The translations under genes were made by a program, and so were the position numbers. Under the pieces are notes generated by a model. That model was not told the DNA's origin and made no database searches. It saw only the letters and a program-made list of their open reading frames with translations. From Singulisphaera sp. GP187 (GTDB lineage Bacteria; Planctomycetota; Planctomycetia; Gemmatales; Gemmataceae), in the NCBI GenBank assembly GCA_945868575.1, contig CAMBMH010000015.1, positions 1 to 41,956 of the forward strand: 41,956 bases of DNA, given 5' to 3'. Each line of letters begins with the position of its first letter. Positions within the stretch are counted from its first letter, which is position 1. This document shows, one piece after another, positions 16,977 to 28,219 of this stretch.

Positions 16977-18545
16977 ATGCGCCTCAAGAATTGGACCAGG
17001 TTTTGTCTCGTTTGTGGCTTACTCGTTTACATGGAAGCCAAGCCTCTATTTTCCCAAAATCCCGGCGATGCAATAAAAACAGCGAATCGGCCTTGGGCCG
17101 AAATCCAGGTGCAGGATGCTGAAACCGGCCGGGGTATACCCCTGGTGGAACTGGAAACCGTTAACAATCTGTGTTTTGTCACGGACAACGCCGGGCGGAT
17201 TGCGTTTCAGGAGCCCGGCCTGATGGGCCAGGAGATCTTTTTCACAGTCAAAAGCCACGGCTATGAAATGGCAAAAGACGGTTTTGGCTTCCCCGGGGTC
17301 CGCTTCATCCCCAAAGCGGGTGAAAGAAAAGTCATCAAGCTCCAACGAAAAAACCTTGCGGAAAGGTTGTGTAGGCTCACCGGGGAAGGCCTTTATCGGG
17401 ATAGCCACCTTTTGGGCTACGAAAGCCCTCTTTTCAAACCCCTGGGAGCCGGTCAGGTATCCGGCCAGGATTCGATCCAGGCAACCGTTTTTCGCGACAA
17501 AGTATACTGGTTTTGGGGCGACACCAACCGGATGAGCTACCCTTTGGGGCTTTTCCGGATGGCGGGAGCCACCACCCCGGTTCCCGGACCCTGTTTCGAC
17601 CCTTCCAACGGAATCGCTTTCGACTATTTCGTCGACAAGTCAGGCTTTGCACGAGCAATGATGCCCATCCCCGAACGCCCCGAGGGAGTCGTTTGGGTGT
17701 TTGCCCTCTGCGTCGTTCCCAATAGCACAGGAAAGGATACCCTTTGCGCTCATTACACCAGGCGCAAAGGTCTGGCCGAGGAGATCGAACACGGGATTGC
17801 CGTCTTTGACCCGGAAAAAGCGATTTTTCAACCAGCCAAAACCCTTCCCCTCACGGAAACCTGGCGCCACCCCTCCGGGCACCCTATTCCTTTCGAGGAA
17901 AACGGCAAAAAATGGCTTCTGATGGGGAGTCCCAACCCGAATGTGCGGGTCCCCGCCACCCTGGAAGCCATTCTGGATCCCTCCCAATACGAGGCCTTTA
18001 CCTATTTCAGCGCCCCTTCACCCAAGAGACCTGTGGACCCCGCATTGTCGGAGGAAAAAAAGCCTTTTTGGCGTTGGCAAAAAGACCTTCCTCCCACCGA
18101 TTCCAAAACCGAACACAAGCTGTTTAAAGACGGGACAATCCTGCCGGAGCACGCCTGCTTTTGCCCGGTTAATGTTTCCGATCCAAAGGAACGAATCATG
18201 CTGCACAGCGGATCGGTGCGCTGGAATGCGTTCCGAAAGAAATGGATACTCCTGGCGGGGCAAATCGGTGGAAAATCGTCCCTTTTGGGCGAAGTATTTT
18301 ATGCCGAGTCAGATGCCCCCAATGGGCCTTTTTCCCATGCAACAAAGGTTTTAACCCACGACAAACAGACCTTTTACAATGTTTGCCATCACGATTTTCT
18401 CGACCGGGAGGAGGGCAGGTTCGTCCATTTCGAGGGGACTTACACCAATGATTTTTCTGGAAACCCATGGAAAACTCCACGGTATAACTACAACCAGGTT
18501 CTTTATCGGCTGGATTTGGGGTCGAAAGGGCTCGGTTTGAGGTGA
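16977..18545 (+). CDS. Exported protein of unknown function
   Basis: A 522-residue protein with a signal peptide (about residues 1-26). Residues 40-120 look like a carboxypeptidase-regulatory or transthyretin-like beta domain (IQVQDAETGRGIPLVELET, TDNAGRIAFQEPG). The rest has repeated aromatic beta segments such as VYWFWGDTNRM, KKWLLMGSPNPNVR and RKKWILLAGQIGG. These recall five-bladed glycosidase-like propellers (GH43/GH32 or DUF4185 proteins), but no catalytic acid pattern can be assigned. It might bind or process a polysaccharide. No close partner gene is seen; it precedes the multiheme operon by 168 bases with a hairpin between. Confidence 0.75.
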   Translation: MRLKNWTRFCLVCGLLVYMEAKPLFSQNPGDAIKTANRPWAEIQVQDAETGRGIPLVELETVNNLCFVTDNAGRIAFQEPGLMGQEIFFTVKSHGYEMAKDGFGFPGVRFIPKAGERKVIKLQRKNLAERLCRLTGEGLYRDSHLLGYESPLFKPLGAGQVSGQDSIQATVFRDKVYWFWGDTNRMSYPLGLFRMAGATTPVPGPCFDPSNGIAFDYFVDKSGFARAMMPIPERPEGVVWVFALCVVPNSTGKDTLCAHYTRRKGLAEEIEHGIAVFDPEKAIFQPAKTLPLTETWRHPSGHPIPFEENGKKWLLMGSPNPNVRVPATLEAILDPSQYEAFTYFSAPSPKRPVDPALSEEKKPFWRWQKDLPPTDSKTEHKLFKDGTILPEHACFCPVNVSDPKERIMLHSGSVRWNAFRKKWILLAGQIGGKSSLLGEVFYAESDAPNGPFSHATKVLTHDKQTFYNVCHHDFLDREEGRFVHFEGTYTNDFSGNPWKTPRYNYNQVLYRLDLGSKGLGLR

Positions 18546-18713: not shown

Positions 18714-20111
18714 GTGGGAAGGCTGTTCGGCCTGATTTTGGGTTTGATCGGCCTTTCGAGCCTTTGCTCCGCCCTTTGCAGCCAAATTCTCCCTTCTCCC
18801 AAGCCTGACCTCCCTTCTTCGGCATCTTCCACGGAACCCTACCTGGTAGGGGCCGGATCGTGCTCCGCCTCGGGTTGCCACAACGCCAATGGCCATTCCG
18901 GAACCAAAGGGAGCGAATACTCCACCTGGATCGCTTCGGATCCCCACGCCCAGGCCTCCTCGGTTTTGGGCTCGGATCGTTCCCAAAAAATGCTGGCCCG
19001 ATATCTGGGAAAAAGCGCCAATACCGCCGATCCCCAAAAAGAGCCCGTTTGTCTATCGTGTCATGTGTTTCCCGACCCGACCCTGAACCAAGGCTCCTAT
19101 ACCGGGCGTTTTAGCGCGGCCGATGGTGTGAGTTGCGAGGCTTGCCACGGAAAAGCCTCCCAATGGGTTTCGGCACACTATCAGGAATCGTGGAAAACCC
19201 TTTCCTCCGCGGAAAAATCCAAATTCGGTTTTGTCGACACCAAGAATTTGGCGATCCGGACCCGGACTTGTGTTCCTTGCCATGTGGGCGAAAAGGAGAT
19301 GGATGTCAATCACGACCTGATCGCTGCAGGCCACCCGAGACTGCGGTTTGAAATGGGTTCCTTTTTGGCAAACTATTCCTCCCGACATTGGCGTCAGACC
19401 GACGAAATTGCCCGGGATCCCAATCATTCATGGAACATCTGGACCACAGGTCAGGTTATCACCACCAAAGCCGCGCTCGAACTCTTGTCCTACCGGGGCA
19501 ATCAAAAGACCAAGCCCTGGCCTGAACTTTCCGAATACAACTGTGCCGCCTGCCATCATTCCCTAAGTGGATTTTATGGTAATCTACCCTCCCACGGAAA
19601 AATGCTATTTGGTACCTGGAGCAACCTTTCGGGGAATTTACCCGCGTATTCTCCCTTAAACTCCTTGTGGGATAAAAAGGCCAAAGAAGACTTGGGAAGC
19701 CTGACCCGCTTGATGGTCAAGATCGGATCCCACCGGGCCGAAGTCGGAAGTTTGGCAGAAAAGCTTGCCAAAAAGCTTGATCACGGCACATCCCACTTGG
19801 CGCCTCCGCCTTCCCCAAAAGAGGTCCGGACTTGGATTGAAGCTTATGAAGGATCGATCAAAGAGAACAAAATAAATCCCAATTGGGATCAGGACACTCA
19901 AACTTACATAATGCTAAGGGCTTATTTTCAGCATGCCAGGGATCTGAAAAAGGAAGTTCCCCCCAATTTGGAGAACCACCTTGGGGAGCTTCAGGATGAT
20001 TTGACATCAGCATTTCAAACAAACACCAATAGCATTCTGCATTCTCCGGAAAATTATGATTCCAAGCTGTCGAGAAAATGGCTGCAAAAATTTGGGGAGG
20101 ATTTGCGATGA
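18714..20111 (+). CDS. Pentaheme c-type cytochrome, c554-like (first paralogue)
   Basis: A 465-residue periplasmic cytochrome starting at GTG with GAGG upstream and a signal peptide or anchor (residues 1-24). Five haem sites are visible: an unusual CX4CH (CSASGCH, Cys50) and four CXXCH at Cys113 (CLSCH), Cys141 (CEACH), Cys186 (CVPCH) and Cys277 (CAACH). The AAGHPRL block after the fourth site is like that of cytochrome c554 and related multihaem proteins. The C-terminal 180 residues are helical and haem-free. It overlaps the next gene by ATGA. Likely role: electron transfer, or an oxidoreductase subunit, in the periplasm. A catalytic CX4CH haem, as some multihaem reductases have at an unusual site, is possible but unproven. 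Confidence 0.88.
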   Translation: MGRLFGLILGLIGLSSLCSALCSQILPSPKPDLPSSASSTEPYLVGAGSCSASGCHNANGHSGTKGSEYSTWIASDPHAQASSVLGSDRSQKMLARYLGKSANTADPQKEPVCLSCHVFPDPTLNQGSYTGRFSAADGVSCEACHGKASQWVSAHYQESWKTLSSAEKSKFGFVDTKNLAIRTRTCVPCHVGEKEMDVNHDLIAAGHPRLRFEMGSFLANYSSRHWRQTDEIARDPNHSWNIWTTGQVITTKAALELLSYRGNQKTKPWPELSEYNCAACHHSLSGFYGNLPSHGKMLFGTWSNLSGNLPAYSPLNSLWDKKAKEDLGSLTRLMVKIGSHRAEVGSLAEKLAKKLDHGTSHLAPPPSPKEVRTWIEAYEGSIKENKINPNWDQDTQTYIMLRAYFQHARDLKKEVPPNLENHLGELQDDLTSAFQTNTNSILHSPENYDSKLSRKWLQKFGEDLR

Positions 20112-21637
20112 GCACATACTCTTCAAACAGGGGGTTCTGGCGCGGACTCACCTTGGGCGTTGCATTTTTCGGTCTTACCCTTTTCCTAAACCTGTTGACC
20201 TTGCGACCGGGGGTTCGAGGCGAATCGATTGCAGTTTCGAAGGCCGAACCCGCCGCCGGAAAACCGTTGCCCAAACTGTATTTCGGATCCAAGGCATGTG
20301 CCTCGGCAGGTTGCCACGAAAAGGGACAAGTCACTGATCCCCCGCTCCTCTGCCGAGGTGATGAACTCGATCGCTTCAAGGCCCATGACCGCCATGCGGA
20401 TGCTTATAACGCGATGACAGGAAAATTGGGCCGGGACATTCTCAAGCGGCTCAACTTGGGCGAACCCCAAACCGCCACAGATTGTCTGGCTTGCCATTCG
20501 GTGAACATCGAAAAAGGCGCAACCAAACACGAATCTTTCCAATTGGAGGAAGGGGTTGGATGTGTGGTTTGCCATGGCGCCCATGAACGCTGGGTGGGCT
20601 CACATAGTCTGGTGATTTCCCGATCCGCCTTCCGGATACTCCCACGGGAAACCAAGGAATCCGACTATGGGATGACCGACCTTTGGGATCCTGCCAAACG
20701 CACCGCCCTTTGTGCGTCGTGCCATGTGGGCAATCAGGAACAGGGGAAGTTCGTTACCCATGACATGTATGCGGCGGGCCATCCCCCCTTGCAAGGCTTT
20801 GAAGTCGCAAGCTGGTCGAACCAAATGCCCAGGCACTGGCAACTGTTGCGGGAGAAACCCAAAGTAGTCCAAAAGATCCAGGGGCACAATTCGAGCGTTT
20901 GGGAGGAGAGCCAACTGATGCTGGTTGGCTCGGCGATAACTCTGCGCGAATCGATGCGTCTCCTGGCAAGTCATGCCAAAACCGCCTCAATTAACGGCGA
21001 GATGCTCGATTGGGCCCTTTTTGATTGCTACGCCTGCCATCATCCCCTTGGTCCACGCAGTTGGCGTCAAAACCAGACCCACCCCGGCAAACCGGGCAGG
21101 GTTCCGCTCAAAACATGGCCGATGGTTTTACCCGGAATGGGTGAGAAACTGCTTGGGTCCAAAGAGGAGGTGGACCAATTGACCCGCGAACTTGAGAACG
21201 CGACCTACTCACGCCCCTTTGGTGATCCCAAAAAGATCCAGTTGGCATCTGAAAAAATCGCCCACTGGGCCGACGCGATTGCCAAATCTTTTGCGTCCCA
21301 ACCTCTTGACCAAAAGACCGGTCCCAAATTGGGAAGTGAACTTCTCAAAATCTGGCAAGCTCCACCACGGGATTTTGACTCCGCCCGCCAAACGGGCTGG
21401 GCCCTCCTGACCTATCACTCAGATGAAGCCGCCCTTGGTCGAAACATAAACAAGGAGTGGTTGAAGTTTCTCGAAGGTTATGAAAGCGGACTGGATCTGA
21501 AACTGAAAACCGGTCGGGGAGTTCGCCCCGCAAGAGGGGAAGTCGCCAATCCGAAACAGGACGATTCTCCGCCAGACCAATTTCATCCAGACGGTTTTAT
21601 GGGCAAGTTAAAATTCTATCTCCAGGAGGGGAAATGA
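20108..21637 (+). CDS. Pentaheme c-type cytochrome, c554-like (second paralogue)
   Basis: A 509-residue cytochrome with an N-terminal anchor or signal (about residues 10-30). It repeats the plan of its upstream neighbour: CX4CH (CASAGCH, Cys64), then CXXCH at Cys126 (CLACH), Cys152 (CVVCH), Cys202 (CASCH) and Cys307 (CYACH), with THDMYAAGHPPL after the fourth. The near-equal spacing shows the two arose by duplication. The start at 20108 (ATGA overlap, GGAGG 8 bases upstream) is chosen over an in-frame ATG at 20078. The C-terminal tail is Pro/Lys-rich. It probably forms a heterodimer or relay with the first paralogue; this is inferred from pairing and coupling. Confidence 0.88.
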   Translation: MSTYSSNRGFWRGLTLGVAFFGLTLFLNLLTLRPGVRGESIAVSKAEPAAGKPLPKLYFGSKACASAGCHEKGQVTDPPLLCRGDELDRFKAHDRHADAYNAMTGKLGRDILKRLNLGEPQTATDCLACHSVNIEKGATKHESFQLEEGVGCVVCHGAHERWVGSHSLVISRSAFRILPRETKESDYGMTDLWDPAKRTALCASCHVGNQEQGKFVTHDMYAAGHPPLQGFEVASWSNQMPRHWQLLREKPKVVQKIQGHNSSVWEESQLMLVGSAITLRESMRLLASHAKTASINGEMLDWALFDCYACHHPLGPRSWRQNQTHPGKPGRVPLKTWPMVLPGMGEKLLGSKEEVDQLTRELENATYSRPFGDPKKIQLASEKIAHWADAIAKSFASQPLDQKTGPKLGSELLKIWQAPPRDFDSARQTGWALLTYHSDEAALGRNINKEWLKFLEGYESGLDLKLKTGRGVRPARGEVANPKQDDSPPDQFHPDGFMGKLKFYLQEGK

Positions 21638-21653
21638 TCCTGGGAGCCTACGG

Positions 21654-22490
21654 ATGCTAATCGATCACACCCATCGTTCCTGGATCGTGGGAACCTTTGC
21701 CGTTGGCATGGGCGCGGTCACACTGTATTTCGTTTTGGACTATTTCACGCCCGGGGGTGGCTTGCGCGGGGGAGATACGGTTGGGCTCTGGTATGGTGTG
21801 GCGGGAAGCGCATTGATGGTTTTTGCCGGATTGATTTCCGCACTGAGGCGCCTTCCCAGTTGGTGGTTTTTGGGCCAAAGACGGGTATGGCTTAGGGGAC
21901 ATGTGTGGCTTGGACTTCTGAGCGGGGTCCTCATCCTTTGCCATAGTCATTTCCGTATGGGTGGTCCGCTGGAATTTCTCCTAATGGTGGTGGTTTTCCT
22001 TGTGATCGGTTCAGGAATTCTTGGCCTTTTGCTTCAGCAATTCATTCCCGCCCTGATTCGGGAACAGGTGGAATCGGAGGCCCCCCTCTCCCAGCTTGAT
22101 GAAATCCTTCTTCGTATGAGGGACCAGTCAGATGACCTTTATTCCAAGGCGGTAGGGGAATTGGCCGATGAAGTCGCCCGCTTAAGAGTGCAAGGGTTTT
22201 ATCTTGAGACCGCCCGTCCCTGGCTAAGTGAGGTCCTGCCCGTCGACAGTCCCATTGCCCATGCTCCGATTTCCCGGGAAATCTTCGCCCAGACCGCCAA
22301 AATCCAGGGGGGACCAAACCTCATGGCCTTTTTGACCAGGCTGGAAGGATATTGCAATGAGCGCCGCCAACTTGCCCGTCAGCAACAGCTTCACAAGATC
22401 CTCCACACCTGGCTCCTGATTCATGTTCCCCTTTCCGTGATGTTGCTCATCCTGGGAATCGCGCATGTTATCACTGCACTATATTGGTAA
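21654..22490 (+). CDS. Membrane di-heme b-type cytochrome-like subunit
   Basis: A 278-residue membrane protein with five hydrophobic helices (about 9-30, 43-64, 83-99, 106-128 and 250-277) and a soluble loop of about 110 residues between helices 4 and 5. Helix 3 has His83 and His97 (X13 between them) and helix 5 has His257 and His271 (again X13). Two helices each with a His pair 14 residues apart is the ligand pattern of two stacked b haems, as in cytochrome b, b561 and ferric-reductase membrane domains. It probably carries electrons across the inner membrane between the Fe-S protein and the periplasmic cytochromes encoded on either side. GGGAG lies about 8 bases before the ATG. No named family is certain. 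Confidence 0.75.
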   Translation: MLIDHTHRSWIVGTFAVGMGAVTLYFVLDYFTPGGGLRGGDTVGLWYGVAGSALMVFAGLISALRRLPSWWFLGQRRVWLRGHVWLGLLSGVLILCHSHFRMGGPLEFLLMVVVFLVIGSGILGLLLQQFIPALIREQVESEAPLSQLDEILLRMRDQSDDLYSKAVGELADEVARLRVQGFYLETARPWLSEVLPVDSPIAHAPISREIFAQTAKIQGGPNLMAFLTRLEGYCNERRQLARQQQLHKILHTWLLIHVPLSVMLLILGIAHVITALYW

Positions 22491-22523
22491 ATCCAGAATC
22501 GTTTCAGGAGACATCAAGAACCC

Positions 22524-23960
22524 ATGCCCTCCGCATTCCGACATCCCAAGAACCTTTCCGAATGGATCGACCTGGGCCGATATGGAACGGCACGGAGATT
22601 CCTTTCGGGATGGAGTCCCTGGATGTTGGGGGCTGCCCTGGTGAGCCTGGGACTGGTGATGGGTGCTTTGTTATTGGACAAAAAAACCGCGTTTCAGTCG
22701 GGTCCACTAAGCCATTCCCATGGCTCCTTTAACAACGCCTGCGCCCAATGTCACACCGAACCTTTCGCTCCGGCGGCACGACTGATCCTGTCAAACAGCA
22801 ATTTTTCCTCTGTAAGTGATGCCTCTTGTGTAAAATGCCACAATCCGGGCATCCACCATTTGGCCGAACAATTCCAGCCTAGCTGCGCAAGTTGCCACAA
22901 GGAACACCAGGGGGAAAGGGATTTGAAAAGGGTGCCCGATTCCGAATGCCTTCAGTGCCACAAGGACCTTCACAGGGCAGACAACGCCCCACCGCAAGTG
23001 GCGCAATCCATCACCGGTTTTGATGCAAAATCCCATCCCGAAATGCGTATCCATCAAGCCATTGGTGGCCCATCCACGGATCCAGGGACGGTGAGATTCA
23101 GTCATCAGTCCCACCTCAAACCAGATGGAATTTTAACCATTGCCAGTTTCCTCCCCAATGGAGATGCAAATCGCGTCCGAAAGATCTTGCGCTGCGCCGA
23201 TTGCCATCAAACGGACAAGTCGGGAAATCTGATGACAGAAATTTCCTACGATGCCCACTGCAAATCATGCCACCCGGTTCCTGTAAGACTGGCTGGCACC
23301 CCAAGCAAAGACCCAAGGTATACAAAGTTCGAAACCCTTGTTGCCAACTTCCAGGCCAGGCCGGCCCTTCATCCTGCCAAGGGCCAGGATACTTCGGCCA
23401 CTCTTGGCGAACTCAGGCAGCGTCTCGAAAAACTAATCGGGGATCCGCCACAAGTGCAAATCATGGACTATCTGGATTTTCAATATGGTTTTTTCAACGG
23501 GGTTTTTGGTGCCAGAAGGGAAATGAGCGACTGGCCTAAAGCCCAGATGAAATTTCTTGTCGAGCAACTTTTTCATCCATTTGGAAAGGACGGCAAACCT
23601 TCACAGGCGGGCTGCCTCTATTGCCACACGGCGGATCCCAAATCCGCCGACCCAATTCCGCTTGCTAAAAGCAATATTCCAAAGCGTTGGAATCGGCACG
23701 CACTTTTTCGTCATCAAAGCCACCAACATCTCGATTGCCAAAGCTGCCACAAAGCGCAATTCAGCCAAAACACATCGGATATCCTGATGCCAACCATCAA
23801 GCAGTGCATGAACTGCCATCACACGGGGTCGGGTGGCGCCCGGGCCGACTGTTCCGAGTGTCACAAATACCATCCTGAAAATGGATCTCGGGATATACAA
23901 TCCGGGGCATACTCCCACACTCTTGAAGCGTTGACCAGGGAAGGCAATCATGGCCCCTGA
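22524..23960 (+). CDS. Membrane-anchored decaheme c-type cytochrome
   Basis: A 478-residue protein with one transmembrane helix (about residues 32-51) and ten CXXCH haem sites in the periplasmic part, in order: CAQCH (Cys73), CVKCH, CASCH, CLQCH, CADCH, CKSCH, CLYCH, CQSCH, CMNCH and CSECH. Several sites are followed by further His residues usable as distal ligands, as in cytochrome c3/NapC-like chains. A haem-free stretch of about 90 residues separates sites 6 and 7, dividing it into a hexahaem and a tetrahaem part. It overlaps the next gene by 11 bases. Likely role: the long electron wire linking the membrane b-haem subunit with the pentahaem proteins or an outer acceptor. Confidence 0.9.
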   Translation: MPSAFRHPKNLSEWIDLGRYGTARRFLSGWSPWMLGAALVSLGLVMGALLLDKKTAFQSGPLSHSHGSFNNACAQCHTEPFAPAARLILSNSNFSSVSDASCVKCHNPGIHHLAEQFQPSCASCHKEHQGERDLKRVPDSECLQCHKDLHRADNAPPQVAQSITGFDAKSHPEMRIHQAIGGPSTDPGTVRFSHQSHLKPDGILTIASFLPNGDANRVRKILRCADCHQTDKSGNLMTEISYDAHCKSCHPVPVRLAGTPSKDPRYTKFETLVANFQARPALHPAKGQDTSATLGELRQRLEKLIGDPPQVQIMDYLDFQYGFFNGVFGARREMSDWPKAQMKFLVEQLFHPFGKDGKPSQAGCLYCHTADPKSADPIPLAKSNIPKRWNRHALFRHQSHQHLDCQSCHKAQFSQNTSDILMPTIKQCMNCHHTGSGGARADCSECHKYHPENGSRDIQSGAYSHTLEALTREGNHGP

Positions 23961-26520
23961 ACGAAAAATGGTTCTGAATCCACCCGCACGCCTTGATGAC
24001 CGGGACACGGATATCCTGGTTACCGGTGATCAATTGGCGCAAATCTCCCTTTTTGCCAAGGTCAAACGCAAACCCAAATTCGATGAAACTCCAGGGGCAA
24101 TCAAGCTTCGCTTCGTTCGCAAGGGAGAAATTCTGGTCCGACAGGGAGAAGCGGGATGGACCGCTATGTACCCACTTAAACCGGAAGACCTTGCGAATCT
24201 TGGTCCGGCACTGATCGCCGGGAACAAATCACAAGCTTTGCTGGTAAAAAACACTCTCGATGCTCGCGCCACAAGACCCTTGGAATCCGAGCCGGCGGTT
24301 GCTTTTCAAATTGCACTGCCCCGGCGACATAAACCCGGAAAACCAACCGGGATCATGGGGCTCTTCTCAAAGTGGTTTTCCGGGAGAAAAAGCGATTCCC
24401 CAGTCAATCGTCCAAAGCATATTCCGATAGACGCACCCCGTTACGCCGATCTGGAAACCAGGACCGCGATGATACTGGAAGGGGAACTATTTGGAGAAAT
24501 GAGCTGCAAAACCGGAGCGCCCCGATCCGGAACGATTGTCGCCGAGAAGGACGGGTTCCTTCTGGAAATGTTGCGCAGCGTACTTGATCTGATTGAAAGT
24601 GATCCGGGATTTCGTGAGGAATTTGACCAGATTTACAAAAACCGGATGCTCGAACATCAACTTCCCCGGATGCCCCTATTCTCCGAACTTAGCATCGACC
24701 AATTGAACCGAATCAAGGATCAAATTGAACTGGTTAGCTTCAAGATTGGCCAGGTTATTTTTCACGAGAATGACCGATCTGATGGCATATATATTATCCG
24801 CTCGGGCCTGGTGCAAGCAACGAAAAACCAGACCGATCTGATCGCCATTGAGGATATTACTGACTGGTCCAAGGCTATTGAGGCCTCGCGTTCCCTAGGC
24901 TTGCCGCCCATCGCTGAGGGGGAGGCAAATCCATTCCTGTGCCTTGGGCAGTCACTTTCCCAAATAATCGGGGACACCACCGATGCGTTGCACTTGACCG
25001 GTGATGCCAAACAGGATTGGGTCTACACTCTAAACGACTTTATCAAATCTCCATTTTCCGATACAAAAAACTATTCATTATTCGCTTTACCCGACAACCC
25101 GACACTTCGCGCTTTCCTTTCCACCTTGAACAAGGACCCCAAGCAGTGGTCCGATCTGGACAAAACCTCATTTGGAAGGCGTTTGGTTGAGACGATACTT
25201 CCCGGCACCATACGGCCAATCCATCAAAAATCTGGTTTGGGTTTTATCATCTCCTATTTAAGCAAAGGCGAAATTTTTGGAGAAATGGGGGTCCTTTCAG
25301 GACTTCCCCGTAGCGCCTCATGTATCGCTTATGTCCATGGCGATCCCGGGGAGTCCCATCAGGTTCGCGCCGCGAAATGGCGCAAGGATGAATCGCTGGT
25401 CCATTTGTTCCGAATTCCAAAAAATGTCTTTGAGGAAATTGTCGAGCAATCCCCTACCACATGTCTTAAAATCATCGAAGAGATAACCCTTCGGGCCAAA
25501 AATGACAAACTGGCCGAACCTCAATCGGGAGGCGCCACCACAAACGCACAATTTTCCGAACGGGCCAAAGCGCTTGGGCTTATGCAAGGCCAAAGCCTGA
25601 TGCTGATCGACCTCGACAAATGCACCCGTTGCGATGAATGCGTCAGGGCATGCGTTGACACCCACGAAGACGGAAAAAGTCGTCTTTTCCTGGATGGTCC
25701 AAGGTTTGGAAACCATTTGGTCCCGGCGGCATGTCGCTCCTGCATGGACCCGGTGTGCATGATCGGTTGCCCCGTCGGTTCGATTCATCGGGGCAACAAC
25801 CGGCAAATGGTTATCGAGGATTGGTGCATTGGCTGTGGTCTTTGCGCCAACAATTGCCCTTATGGATCGATCCAGATGCACGACCGGGGAATTCTCCCCG
25901 AAGGACTTGCCGGATGGCAATGGACAACCAAAGGACCCAAAAATCATCATGTCAATGGGAATATCCGTCCACCCCTTGTCAACGGATTGGAGTTCCATCA
26001 ATTGAAGGGCGCAGCCCCACCTTACATCCCCCACACTGGCCCCATCACATTTACCCATGAGTTTTCCGTCGATCGCGAGGAGTGGCAGGCCGCGTTACAG
26101 TTCCGGATCTCGCTCACCTGTCCCAATTCCCCTTCGCTTGTCAAAATAAATGGCAAACTAATAAATGACGATCCGAAATGGGGGTATAAACAGGGCCGGA
26201 GAGAATATGTCCTTAACAAGTCAGAGAATATTATCCGCCCCGGAAGGAACCGGATCGTGGCCACGATTGAGGCGACCGGCAAGGACCGCGAAACACTCTT
26301 TGAACTGAGAATCGATGGGGTCCACGAGGCGGAGCTCCCCGTAGGGGTACAAGCCGCCGAGGGCGAGGTCCTTGAGGTGAGCGAAAAACTGATCAAACAG
26401 GTCGCTGTAGTTTGCGATCTTTGCAGCAGTCAATGGGGACAAAAACCCGCCTGTGTAAACGCCTGCCCACACGATGCCGCCATCCGGATTGAGGCCCGAA
26501 GCGGGCTGCCCGGCACTTAA
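23950..26520 (+). CDS. Cyclic-nucleotide-binding four-cluster ferredoxin
   Basis: An 856-residue protein with no signal peptide, so cytoplasmic. Two CNB domains lie about 29-210 and 240-505. Each has the phosphate-binding cassette with its key FGE and Arg (FGEMSCKTGAPRS, Arg193; FGEMGVLSGLPRS, Arg454), but each is split by an insertion of 60-140 residues ahead of the cassette. A DmsB/NrfC-like ferredoxin follows: cluster I Cys558/561/564/568, II Cys595/598/603/607, III Cys626/629/632/636 and IV Cys822/825/835/839. Between clusters III and IV sits a beta-sandwich of about 110 residues (690-800). It probably passes electrons to or from the membrane b-type subunit, with cAMP or c-di-AMP-like control. 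The nucleotide and the control are inferred. Confidence 0.9.
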   Translation: MAPERKMVLNPPARLDDRDTDILVTGDQLAQISLFAKVKRKPKFDETPGAIKLRFVRKGEILVRQGEAGWTAMYPLKPEDLANLGPALIAGNKSQALLVKNTLDARATRPLESEPAVAFQIALPRRHKPGKPTGIMGLFSKWFSGRKSDSPVNRPKHIPIDAPRYADLETRTAMILEGELFGEMSCKTGAPRSGTIVAEKDGFLLEMLRSVLDLIESDPGFREEFDQIYKNRMLEHQLPRMPLFSELSIDQLNRIKDQIELVSFKIGQVIFHENDRSDGIYIIRSGLVQATKNQTDLIAIEDITDWSKAIEASRSLGLPPIAEGEANPFLCLGQSLSQIIGDTTDALHLTGDAKQDWVYTLNDFIKSPFSDTKNYSLFALPDNPTLRAFLSTLNKDPKQWSDLDKTSFGRRLVETILPGTIRPIHQKSGLGFIISYLSKGEIFGEMGVLSGLPRSASCIAYVHGDPGESHQVRAAKWRKDESLVHLFRIPKNVFEEIVEQSPTTCLKIIEEITLRAKNDKLAEPQSGGATTNAQFSERAKALGLMQGQSLMLIDLDKCTRCDECVRACVDTHEDGKSRLFLDGPRFGNHLVPAACRSCMDPVCMIGCPVGSIHRGNNRQMVIEDWCIGCGLCANNCPYGSIQMHDRGILPEGLAGWQWTTKGPKNHHVNGNIRPPLVNGLEFHQLKGAAPPYIPHTGPITFTHEFSVDREEWQAALQFRISLTCPNSPSLVKINGKLINDDPKWGYKQGRREYVLNKSENIIRPGRNRIVATIEATGKDRETLFELRIDGVHEAELPVGVQAAEGEVLEVSEKLIKQVAVVCDLCSSQWGQKPACVNACPHDAAIRIEARSGLPGT

Positions 26521-26656: not shown

Positions 26657-28219
26657 ATGGTCATTCGCAATCGTCGTGAACTCTTCAGCGACACCGCCAA
26701 AGGCATGCTTTTGGCTGGGCTTGGCCTTTCCGTAAGCCGCGATTTGGGGCTTGCTCCCGCCTGGGCTGCCGAGGAACCCGCCCGCCTTACTTTTGGTTCC
26801 ATGGAGCCGCTGGTTGAGTTTTTGGCCCAAACTCCACCCGACAAGATCATTTCCGCCTGTGTCGGCAAAATCCGTTCGGGCACCTCACTTCGCGAACTTG
26901 TTGCCGGTGCGGCCCTTGCCAATGCCCGGGCTTTTGGAGGGGAGGACTATGTTGGGTTTCATACCCTTATGGCCTTGGCCCCGGCCTGGTCCATGGCCAA
27001 CGAGGAAGGCAACCGCCCCGAATCCGCCCTACCAGTGTTGAAGGTCCTTTACCGCAACGCAAATCGCCTAAAAGAACGGGGACCAGGCCCCGATACGATG
27101 GGGCCCCTACCCCCTGTTCCCGTTTCCACGGACAATGCCGACTCCGCATCGGTCAGGGATGCCGCACGAGCAAAAAACCTGCAAAAAGCGGATCAGGTAT
27201 TTGCACCCTTTGCCAATCAGGGGCCGAACTTCGGTCTCGATGCCCTGATGGAAATGGTGGATGATGGAGCCGAGGTTCACCGCACTGTTATGGTGGCTAA
27301 ATCCCTGGAACTCTCGGGATTTGTCGGAACACCCAATGCCCACACCCTTCTTCGTCAATCCGTGCATTATTGCGTGAAAAACGAAGCCTCGGTTGGGTAT
27401 GTTCAGCAATCCCTGGAACTCCGCCAGGTGATCCCGACCCTTCTTGAACGCCATCATTTGTTGAACCCCTCAAAAGGGGGAAGGCGAATGGATGATGCTT
27501 GGATCTCAGGTTTTTCACGGACCGTGTTGGGTTCGAACCCGGCGGCAGCGGCGGAAGCCGTCGCCTTGGCCCTCGCTGAAGGGATCCATCCCGAGGACAT
27601 AGGCGAAGCCCTGGCTTTGGGATCGAACCACCTGGTTCTGCGGGACAAAGGTCGCCAGGGGCGAGCCATTCAACCCGGCAAACCAGAAGGGAGCGTCCAC
27701 GGCGATTCCACGGGGGTCCACTCGGGCGATTCGACCCATGCCTGGCGGGCAATCGCACGGTCGGGAAACACTCGTACCAGAAACAGCAGCCTGATCCTTG
27801 CGGGTTATCAACTCTCCCGCGATCGCTCCTATCAGGGAACAGAAATCCTCACGGCGAACCCGGTCCATTCAGGAGCCGTTGCCGAGGCCGCCAAAGCCTT
27901 CCCCCAGGAAAAACTCGCTAGTGAACTGGAGGTGACCATCCGGGCAAAAGATCAACCACGGGCCGCGGCCCTCGTCCAACGCATGGGCGAATTACACACA
28001 GATCCATCAATCGCCAAAAGCGTTCTACGCAAATTCGCCACCAGCGAAGATGGCGCCCTGCATGCGGAAAAATATTACCGGACTGCCTGTGATGATTTTG
28101 AAACCACGCGCAAAAGCCTTCGCTGGAGCCACCTTGCCGGTTTGGCTCGGGTGACCGCAAGCGCCTACGGATTCAAGGCGCCGGGCATTGAAGAGGCCTG
28201 CTCGATTTTAAAAGGCTAA
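26657..28219 (+). CDS. Tat-exported helical protein of unknown function
   Basis: A 520-residue protein beginning with a twin-arginine signal (NRRELFSDTAKG, Arg6-Arg7, then a hydrophobic stretch and an AWAAEE cleavage region near residue 40). The mature part is mostly alpha-helical with many Ala/Leu repeats and scattered His and Asp residues (HTLLRQSVHYC, and a run of HGDSTGVHSGDSTHAW near residues 350-365) that could bind a metal. No family is recognised with confidence; a metal- or haem-containing oxidoreductase would fit Tat export. It lies 136 bases after the cytochrome/ferredoxin operon on the same strand, so it may be its last member or a separate unit. GGAG lies about 10 bases before the ATG. 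Confidence 0.75.
   Translation: MVIRNRRELFSDTAKGMLLAGLGLSVSRDLGLAPAWAAEEPARLTFGSMEPLVEFLAQTPPDKIISACVGKIRSGTSLRELVAGAALANARAFGGEDYVGFHTLMALAPAWSMANEEGNRPESALPVLKVLYRNANRLKERGPGPDTMGPLPPVPVSTDNADSASVRDAARAKNLQKADQVFAPFANQGPNFGLDALMEMVDDGAEVHRTVMVAKSLELSGFVGTPNAHTLLRQSVHYCVKNEASVGYVQQSLELRQVIPTLLERHHLLNPSKGGRRMDDAWISGFSRTVLGSNPAAAAEAVALALAEGIHPEDIGEALALGSNHLVLRDKGRQGRAIQPGKPEGSVHGDSTGVHSGDSTHAWRAIARSGNTRTRNSSLILAGYQLSRDRSYQGTEILTANPVHSGAVAEAAKAFPQEKLASELEVTIRAKDQPRAAALVQRMGELHTDPSIAKSVLRKFATSEDGALHAEKYYRTACDDFETTRKSLRWSHLAGLARVTASAYGFKAPGIEEACSILKG

Follow-up and report, generated by a model that had tools for sequence, protein, structure and literature searches.

The genes p1, p2, b, c10 and fer, which adjoin one another in a 41,956-nucleotide stretch of the Singulisphaera sp. 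GP187 contig CAMBMH010000015.1 (the window), probably encode an inner-membrane electron conduit that connects the cytoplasm with periplasmic c-haems. All five open reading frames (ORFs) lie on the + strand as one tight array. The first, p1 (18714..20111), encodes a Cytochrome_C554-like pentahaem protein with an N-terminal signal or anchor (assigned by Pfam, motifs and conserved His), and p2 (20108..21637) its pentahaem paralogue (Pfam, start and motifs, paralogy, distal His). They are followed by b (21654..22490), a candidate five-helix di-haem b-type protein (invariant His, AlphaFold2, loop charge), c10 (22524..23960), a decahaem c7/c3-like cytochrome with an N-terminal membrane anchor (motifs, Pfam), and fer (23950..26520), a fusion of cyclic-nucleotide-binding (CNB) domains with a DmsB-type four-cluster ferredoxin (Pfam, invariant Cys). 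The p1/p2 junction is an ATGA overlap, gaps of 16 and 33 bases separate p2 from b and b from c10, and c10 overlaps fer by 11 bases, all as an earlier sequence-only reading had stated. The ORF caller placed the p2 start at 20078; we prefer the ATG at 20108, because it forms the ATGA overlap and is preceded by a GGGGAGG ribosome site. That reading had also found no known catalytic subunit in the set; none was recognised here either, and Pfam shows no NrfD-like or HdrD/DsrK-type subunit among the five proteins.

The sole polytopic membrane subunit of the set is b. Its two H-X13-H pairs are by themselves weakly unusual (3% of shuffled b sequences reach two), and the four histidines are invariant in 41/41 homologues. 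His83 (21900..21902, + strand, as are all features below) and His257 (22422..22424) are the predicted cytoplasmic-side haem ligands, and His97 (21942..21944) and His271 (22464..22466) the predicted periplasmic-side ones. An AlphaFold2 model (pLDDT 94) has five long membrane helices, as had been proposed from the letters alone, and helices 4 and 5 are separated by a helical domain. Lys/Arg residues average six in the loop that joins helices 2 and 3 and at most one in the predicted outer loops; because of this Lys/Arg-rich loop, the N-terminus and the large TM4-TM5 loop are predicted to be cytoplasmic and the C-terminus periplasmic, a topology that would place one predicted haem near each membrane face. 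Pfam found no domain in the window's b. Weak matches among the 41 family members, to DUF4405 (17/41), Ferric_reduct (13/41, best 0.0011) and Ni_hydr_CYTB (6/41, best 0.0025), suggest that b is distantly akin to known haem-b membrane proteins; a search of the b profile against PDB sequences returned chance helical matches only.

The predicted total of 20 c-haem sites holds by motif count, with five in p1, five in p2 and ten CXXCH in c10, and composition-preserving shuffles give an expectation of 0.01-0.05 CXXCH per protein. Both p1 and p2 have four CXXCH and one CX4CH, are 28.7% identical to each other and match Cytochrome_C554 in Pfam (p1 2.4e-10, 41.6 bits; p2 7.3e-10, 40.1 bits; cut-off 20.8 bits). 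One CX4CH is kept in 72/87 p homologues, while 14/87 have five CXXCH instead; since this substitution occurs and the Cys and His of CX4CH are 100% conserved in the family alignment, we regard CX4CH as a genuine fifth haem site. Against five haems stand five non-motif His that are at least 95% conserved in the p family (H78, 155, 200, 207 and 225 in p1), and it is by the fifth haem and these distal His that p1 and p2 differ from the cytochrome c554 family. In c10, which contains the Pfam domains Cytochrome_C7 and Cytochrom_c3_2, an alignment of 26 sequences shows ten motifs and nine non-motif His to be invariant and a tenth His to be conserved in at least 90%. All twenty c-haems are thus probably bis-His, none with an open catalytic site; because each has a conserved candidate second His, the cytochromes look like wires, not catalysts.

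The cytoplasmic end would be formed by fer, in which no export signal was seen. The claim of a four-cluster ferredoxin with CNB domains is confirmed by Pfam, which finds three cNMP_binding stretches (8.2e-21) and Fer4, and by 16 cluster Cys in four sets, invariant in 20/20 aligned fers (sets 1-3, C558-568, C595-607 and C626-636, 25621..25857; set 4, C822-C839, 26413..26466). Its Cys pattern and the best PDB relatives of its Fe-S part (8c0z, 7qv7) resemble the DmsB/NrfC/HycB-type ferredoxins, with scores against the HydN and DmsB models (1e-13 and 9e-13) that lie under the equivalog cut-offs; unlike these ferredoxins, fer is fused to three CNB stretches and sits in an array without a molybdopterin partner. 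Among solved structures, the CNB stretch comes closest to cGMP/cAMP-dependent kinases, in their regulatory domains (E 3.7e-15). The first phosphate-binding cassette (G182 E183 ... R192, 24493..24525) aligns to that of cGMP-dependent kinases, and Gly182, Glu183 and Arg192 are invariant in 20/20 aligned fers. The invariant Glu and Arg suggest cyclic-nucleotide control of fer, and the window's genome encodes two class III nucleotide cyclases.

In the arrangement that we propose, cytoplasmic reducing equivalents would enter the four clusters of fer and continue to b, first to its cytoplasmic-side haem (H83/H257) and then to its periplasmic-side one (H97/H271), and on through the membrane-anchored decahaem c10 to the pentahaem p1/p2, which would probably deliver them to other periplasmic or outer cytochromes. 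The CNB domains of fer would probably gate this flow on a cyclic nucleotide signal. We infer haem insertion, assembly, path order, NADH use (below), gating and outward direction from the sequences. The idea of a conduit between cytoplasmic Fe-S clusters and periplasmic c-haems, already put forward in the sequence-only reading, gains strength from the invariant His of b, the candidate second His of the c-haems and a recurring gene linkage.

This linkage was followed in 40 regions, none longer than 20 kb, and in 80 named loci; they come from Planctomycetota, Acidobacteriota, Rokubacteria, Walliibacteriota and a few metagenome-assembled genomes (MAGs) labelled Pseudomonadota or Actinomycetota. 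Homologues of b occur in 70/102 genomes of the window's order and in 66/246 across the phylum, the weakest matches being marginal. Fifty-two loci are well covered, with 6 kb or more of sequence to either side of fer; in 45 of them b and c10 are no further than 9 kb from fer, and in 37/52 p is as well. The b-c10-fer linkage recurs in several phyla, but the exact order p1-p2-b-c10-fer was met only within the window's genus, and elsewhere the p genes shift position. Isolates with the system include Pan216, with the short form, and Tautonia sociabilis, with the NADH form of fer described next. Distant b relatives (L096:2506-4425 and L098:10465-12192) adjoin genes with 15-20 CXXCH and have no CNB-ferredoxin, possibly a further variant. 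Some MAGs on the fer tree are labelled Candidatus Kuenenia stuttgartiensis (L127, L153, L167, L169, L181); the labels are doubtful because these sequences are scattered there among Planctomycetia-type ones.

About half of the loci carry a fused NuoE-NuoF protein beside fer (Pfam Complex1_51K, 2Fe-2S_thioredx and NADH_4Fe-4S), and the fer of these loci starts with a NuoG-like 2Fe-2S/4Fe-4S segment. In a six-frame search, 53 loci had both NuoEF and the NuoG-like N-terminus, 52 had neither, and three, whose contigs end upstream, had the NuoG-like segment alone; among loci with enough flank, 43 had both and 33 neither, with zero exceptions. Gene adjacency is a stronger argument than this correlation for a tie between NuoEF and fer. 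Given the NuoEF module and the NuoG-like N-terminus of fer, the long form probably has NAD(H) as its cytoplasmic partner, and electrons would enter in these sister lineages through a NuoE-NuoF FMN/Fe-S module docked on that N-terminus. The parts are those of the NuoEFG diaphorase modules of complex I, NAD-linked formate dehydrogenase and hydrogenase, but here a haem b/decahaem c path takes the place of the quinone, formate or H2 module. The window falls in the short clade: its fer has no NuoG-like N-terminus and no NuoEF lies nearby, so that this form would have lost, or never had, the NuoEF entry, and another cytoplasmic donor would feed fer. Of the two Complex1_51K (PF01512) genes in the window's genome, one encodes a component of a formate dehydrogenase and the other is a separate NuoF-like frame of 445 aa; the genome's own NuoEF was rejected as the window's entry module, being part of the formate dehydrogenase. 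The genes of this NAD-linked enzyme (L103:7472-11984) encode NuoEF-like, NuoG-like and molybdopterin-type parts.

We consider it rather unlikely that b is a quinone-reactive di-haem cytochrome through which the quinone pool exchanges electrons with fer and c10, in place of direct passage from Fe-S to c-haem. Di-haem cytochrome b subunits are frequent in energy-transducing membrane complexes (PMC8076601), CbcL, in which c-haems are joined with a di-haem b domain, has been proposed to oxidise quinol (PMC6295460), and 6/41 b members have the weak Ni_hydr_CYTB similarity; yet the NuoEF-bearing relatives hold an unbroken cofactor path from NADH to b, for which quinone is not needed. Still less probable is an arrangement in which the proteins form no complex, the cytochromes being separate and fer a regulator responsive to redox state and cyclic nucleotides. 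A regulatory role is the usual one for CNB domains, and contact between subunits could not be captured in a model of b with c10 (below). Such a regulator is hard to square with the preservation of the b-c10-fer linkage over several phyla, with a fer in which Pfam found no DNA-binding or kinase domain, and with the NuoG-like electron-entry domain of the sister fers.

In 24/52 well-covered loci, fer has as a neighbour a decahaem protein with LVIVD repeats (1,200 residues, ten haem sites). In the window's genome it is encoded on another contig, C7, and is 55% identical to a distant homologue; it has no relative in the PDB. Across the 102 genomes of the order, 62 have both this protein and b, eight b only, two the LVIVD protein only and 30 neither. 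As the electron carrier that follows p1/p2, or the last one in the path, it is the best candidate, and given its co-occurrence with b the system probably extends beyond the five genes. The sequence-only reading had called the conduit complete; this was not borne out, as the p genes move, NuoEF is added in about half of the loci and the LVIVD decahaem is often adjacent or, in the window's genome, on another contig. As a separate observation, the LVIVD decahaem at L190:8182-11835 is 55-57% identical across distant planctomycetes, strong conservation for a multihaem protein.

The same parts would suit either direction of flow, and electrons given up by periplasmic or extracellular donors could run inward by way of c10 and b and reach fer, yielding NADH or reduced ferredoxin in the cytoplasm. 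Inward flow would build membrane potential, and formate dehydrogenases, one of which the window's genome encodes, use NuoEF modules to reduce NAD+. We nevertheless hold this direction to be improbable: NAD+ reduction requires very low-potential periplasmic donors, and no such donor enzyme was recognised beside the inspected loci, whose neighbours were annotated non-exhaustively.

A fuller version of the outward conduit, that of a previously unnamed respiratory complex that is shared by several phyla and bypasses the quinone pool, with NAD(H) or a different cytoplasmic donor supplying periplasmic multihaem cytochromes directly across the inner membrane and with cyclic nucleotides acting as a switch at fer, is one that we put forward tentatively. 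Several results weigh against the account given here. A Foldseek search of the b model against the PDB gave nothing at E<=0.001 (best E 0.45). The model of b and c10 as a single chain, with the TAA read through in frame, had a pTM of 0.44, a poorly modelled c10 and no interface, and says nothing for or against b-c10 contact. The co-occurrence of LVIVD and b (Fisher 3e-16) comes from a statistic that ignores shared ancestry. On a tree of the fer core, the NuoEF/NuoG-like split is mostly one clade split with two independent contrasts, and with so few contrasts the correlated evolution of NuoEF and the NuoG-like fer is not statistically shown. Finally, a detached NuoEF could be missed, since the window's genome is 90% complete.

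Among known systems, the transmembrane redox complexes of sulfate reducers (Hmc, Nhc and DsrMKJOP) would be like the window's set in the way they work, with P-side multihaem c and with di-haem b and Fe-S subunits spanning both sides of the membrane, but they have NrfD-like and HdrD/DsrK-type subunits, none of which is seen in the window's set. To our knowledge, no CNB domains occur in these complexes. DsrMKJOP connects the two faces of the membrane by means of an NrfD-like subunit and a di-haem b (PMC8076601). CbcL/MtrH/MtoC of Geobacter and others also combine multihaem c with a di-haem b membrane part, from the inner membrane to the periplasm; each is a single fused protein, mostly with six membrane helices, proposed to be a quinol oxidase or quinone reductase, and the c domain of CbcL has nine CXXCH (PMC6295460). 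In the window, by contrast, b has five helices and is an ORF separate from c10, and fer would give a cytoplasmic Fe-S entry, whereas no CNB-ferredoxin or NADH module is described for those proteins. Of the HydC/FdnI-like similarity that marks the b domain of that family, b shows the weak Ni_hydr_CYTB matches given above; as to a ferric-reductase/NOX-type membrane domain, the Ferric_reduct matches are likewise weak and Foldseek gave no corresponding fold in the PDB. Verrucomicrobia, a phylum related to the window's, have multihaem gene clusters too, with a porin and octahaem cytochromes, proposed to act in extracellular electron transfer; the passages on them describe no b, fer or NuoEF subunit (PMC5615132). 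By its predicted parts, the set is one that would work like the CbcL-type and DsrMKJOP conduits but lacks their defining features. No complex of matching composition was found in the literature searched, with bioRxiv and most subscription papers outside its coverage, which agrees with the earlier reading, to which no named complex so composed was known; nor is an NADH-oxidising module together with putative cyclic-nucleotide domains in one conduit described in that literature.

Three further features accompany the array. Between Cys sets 3 and 4, fer has an insert (25897..26394) found only in the window-like rows of alignment A1; its ~160 residues are common to window-like Gemmataceae and missing from NADH-type fers, and the insert has no Pfam match, although one relative gave a sub-threshold match that hints at a GH2 sugar-binding fold (E 0.14). 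Upstream of p1 lies a gene for a 522-aa protein (16977-18545), likewise upstream in the sister genome L061, with no Pfam match. The strand of fer also carries, downstream of it, a gene for a 520-aa protein with a Tat-like N-terminus (26657-28219), which has no match in Pfam or NCBIfam.

Planctomycetota and Acidobacteriota are abundant, poorly understood soil and water bacteria with many multihaem cytochromes, and a conserved conduit with an NADH-linked form and a built-in cyclic-nucleotide domain would offer a defined, testable way into how they use them. If the proposed mechanism is true, it may represent a quinone-independent respiratory path. It would also mean that a second messenger acts directly on a membrane electron conduit, of which we know no earlier case.

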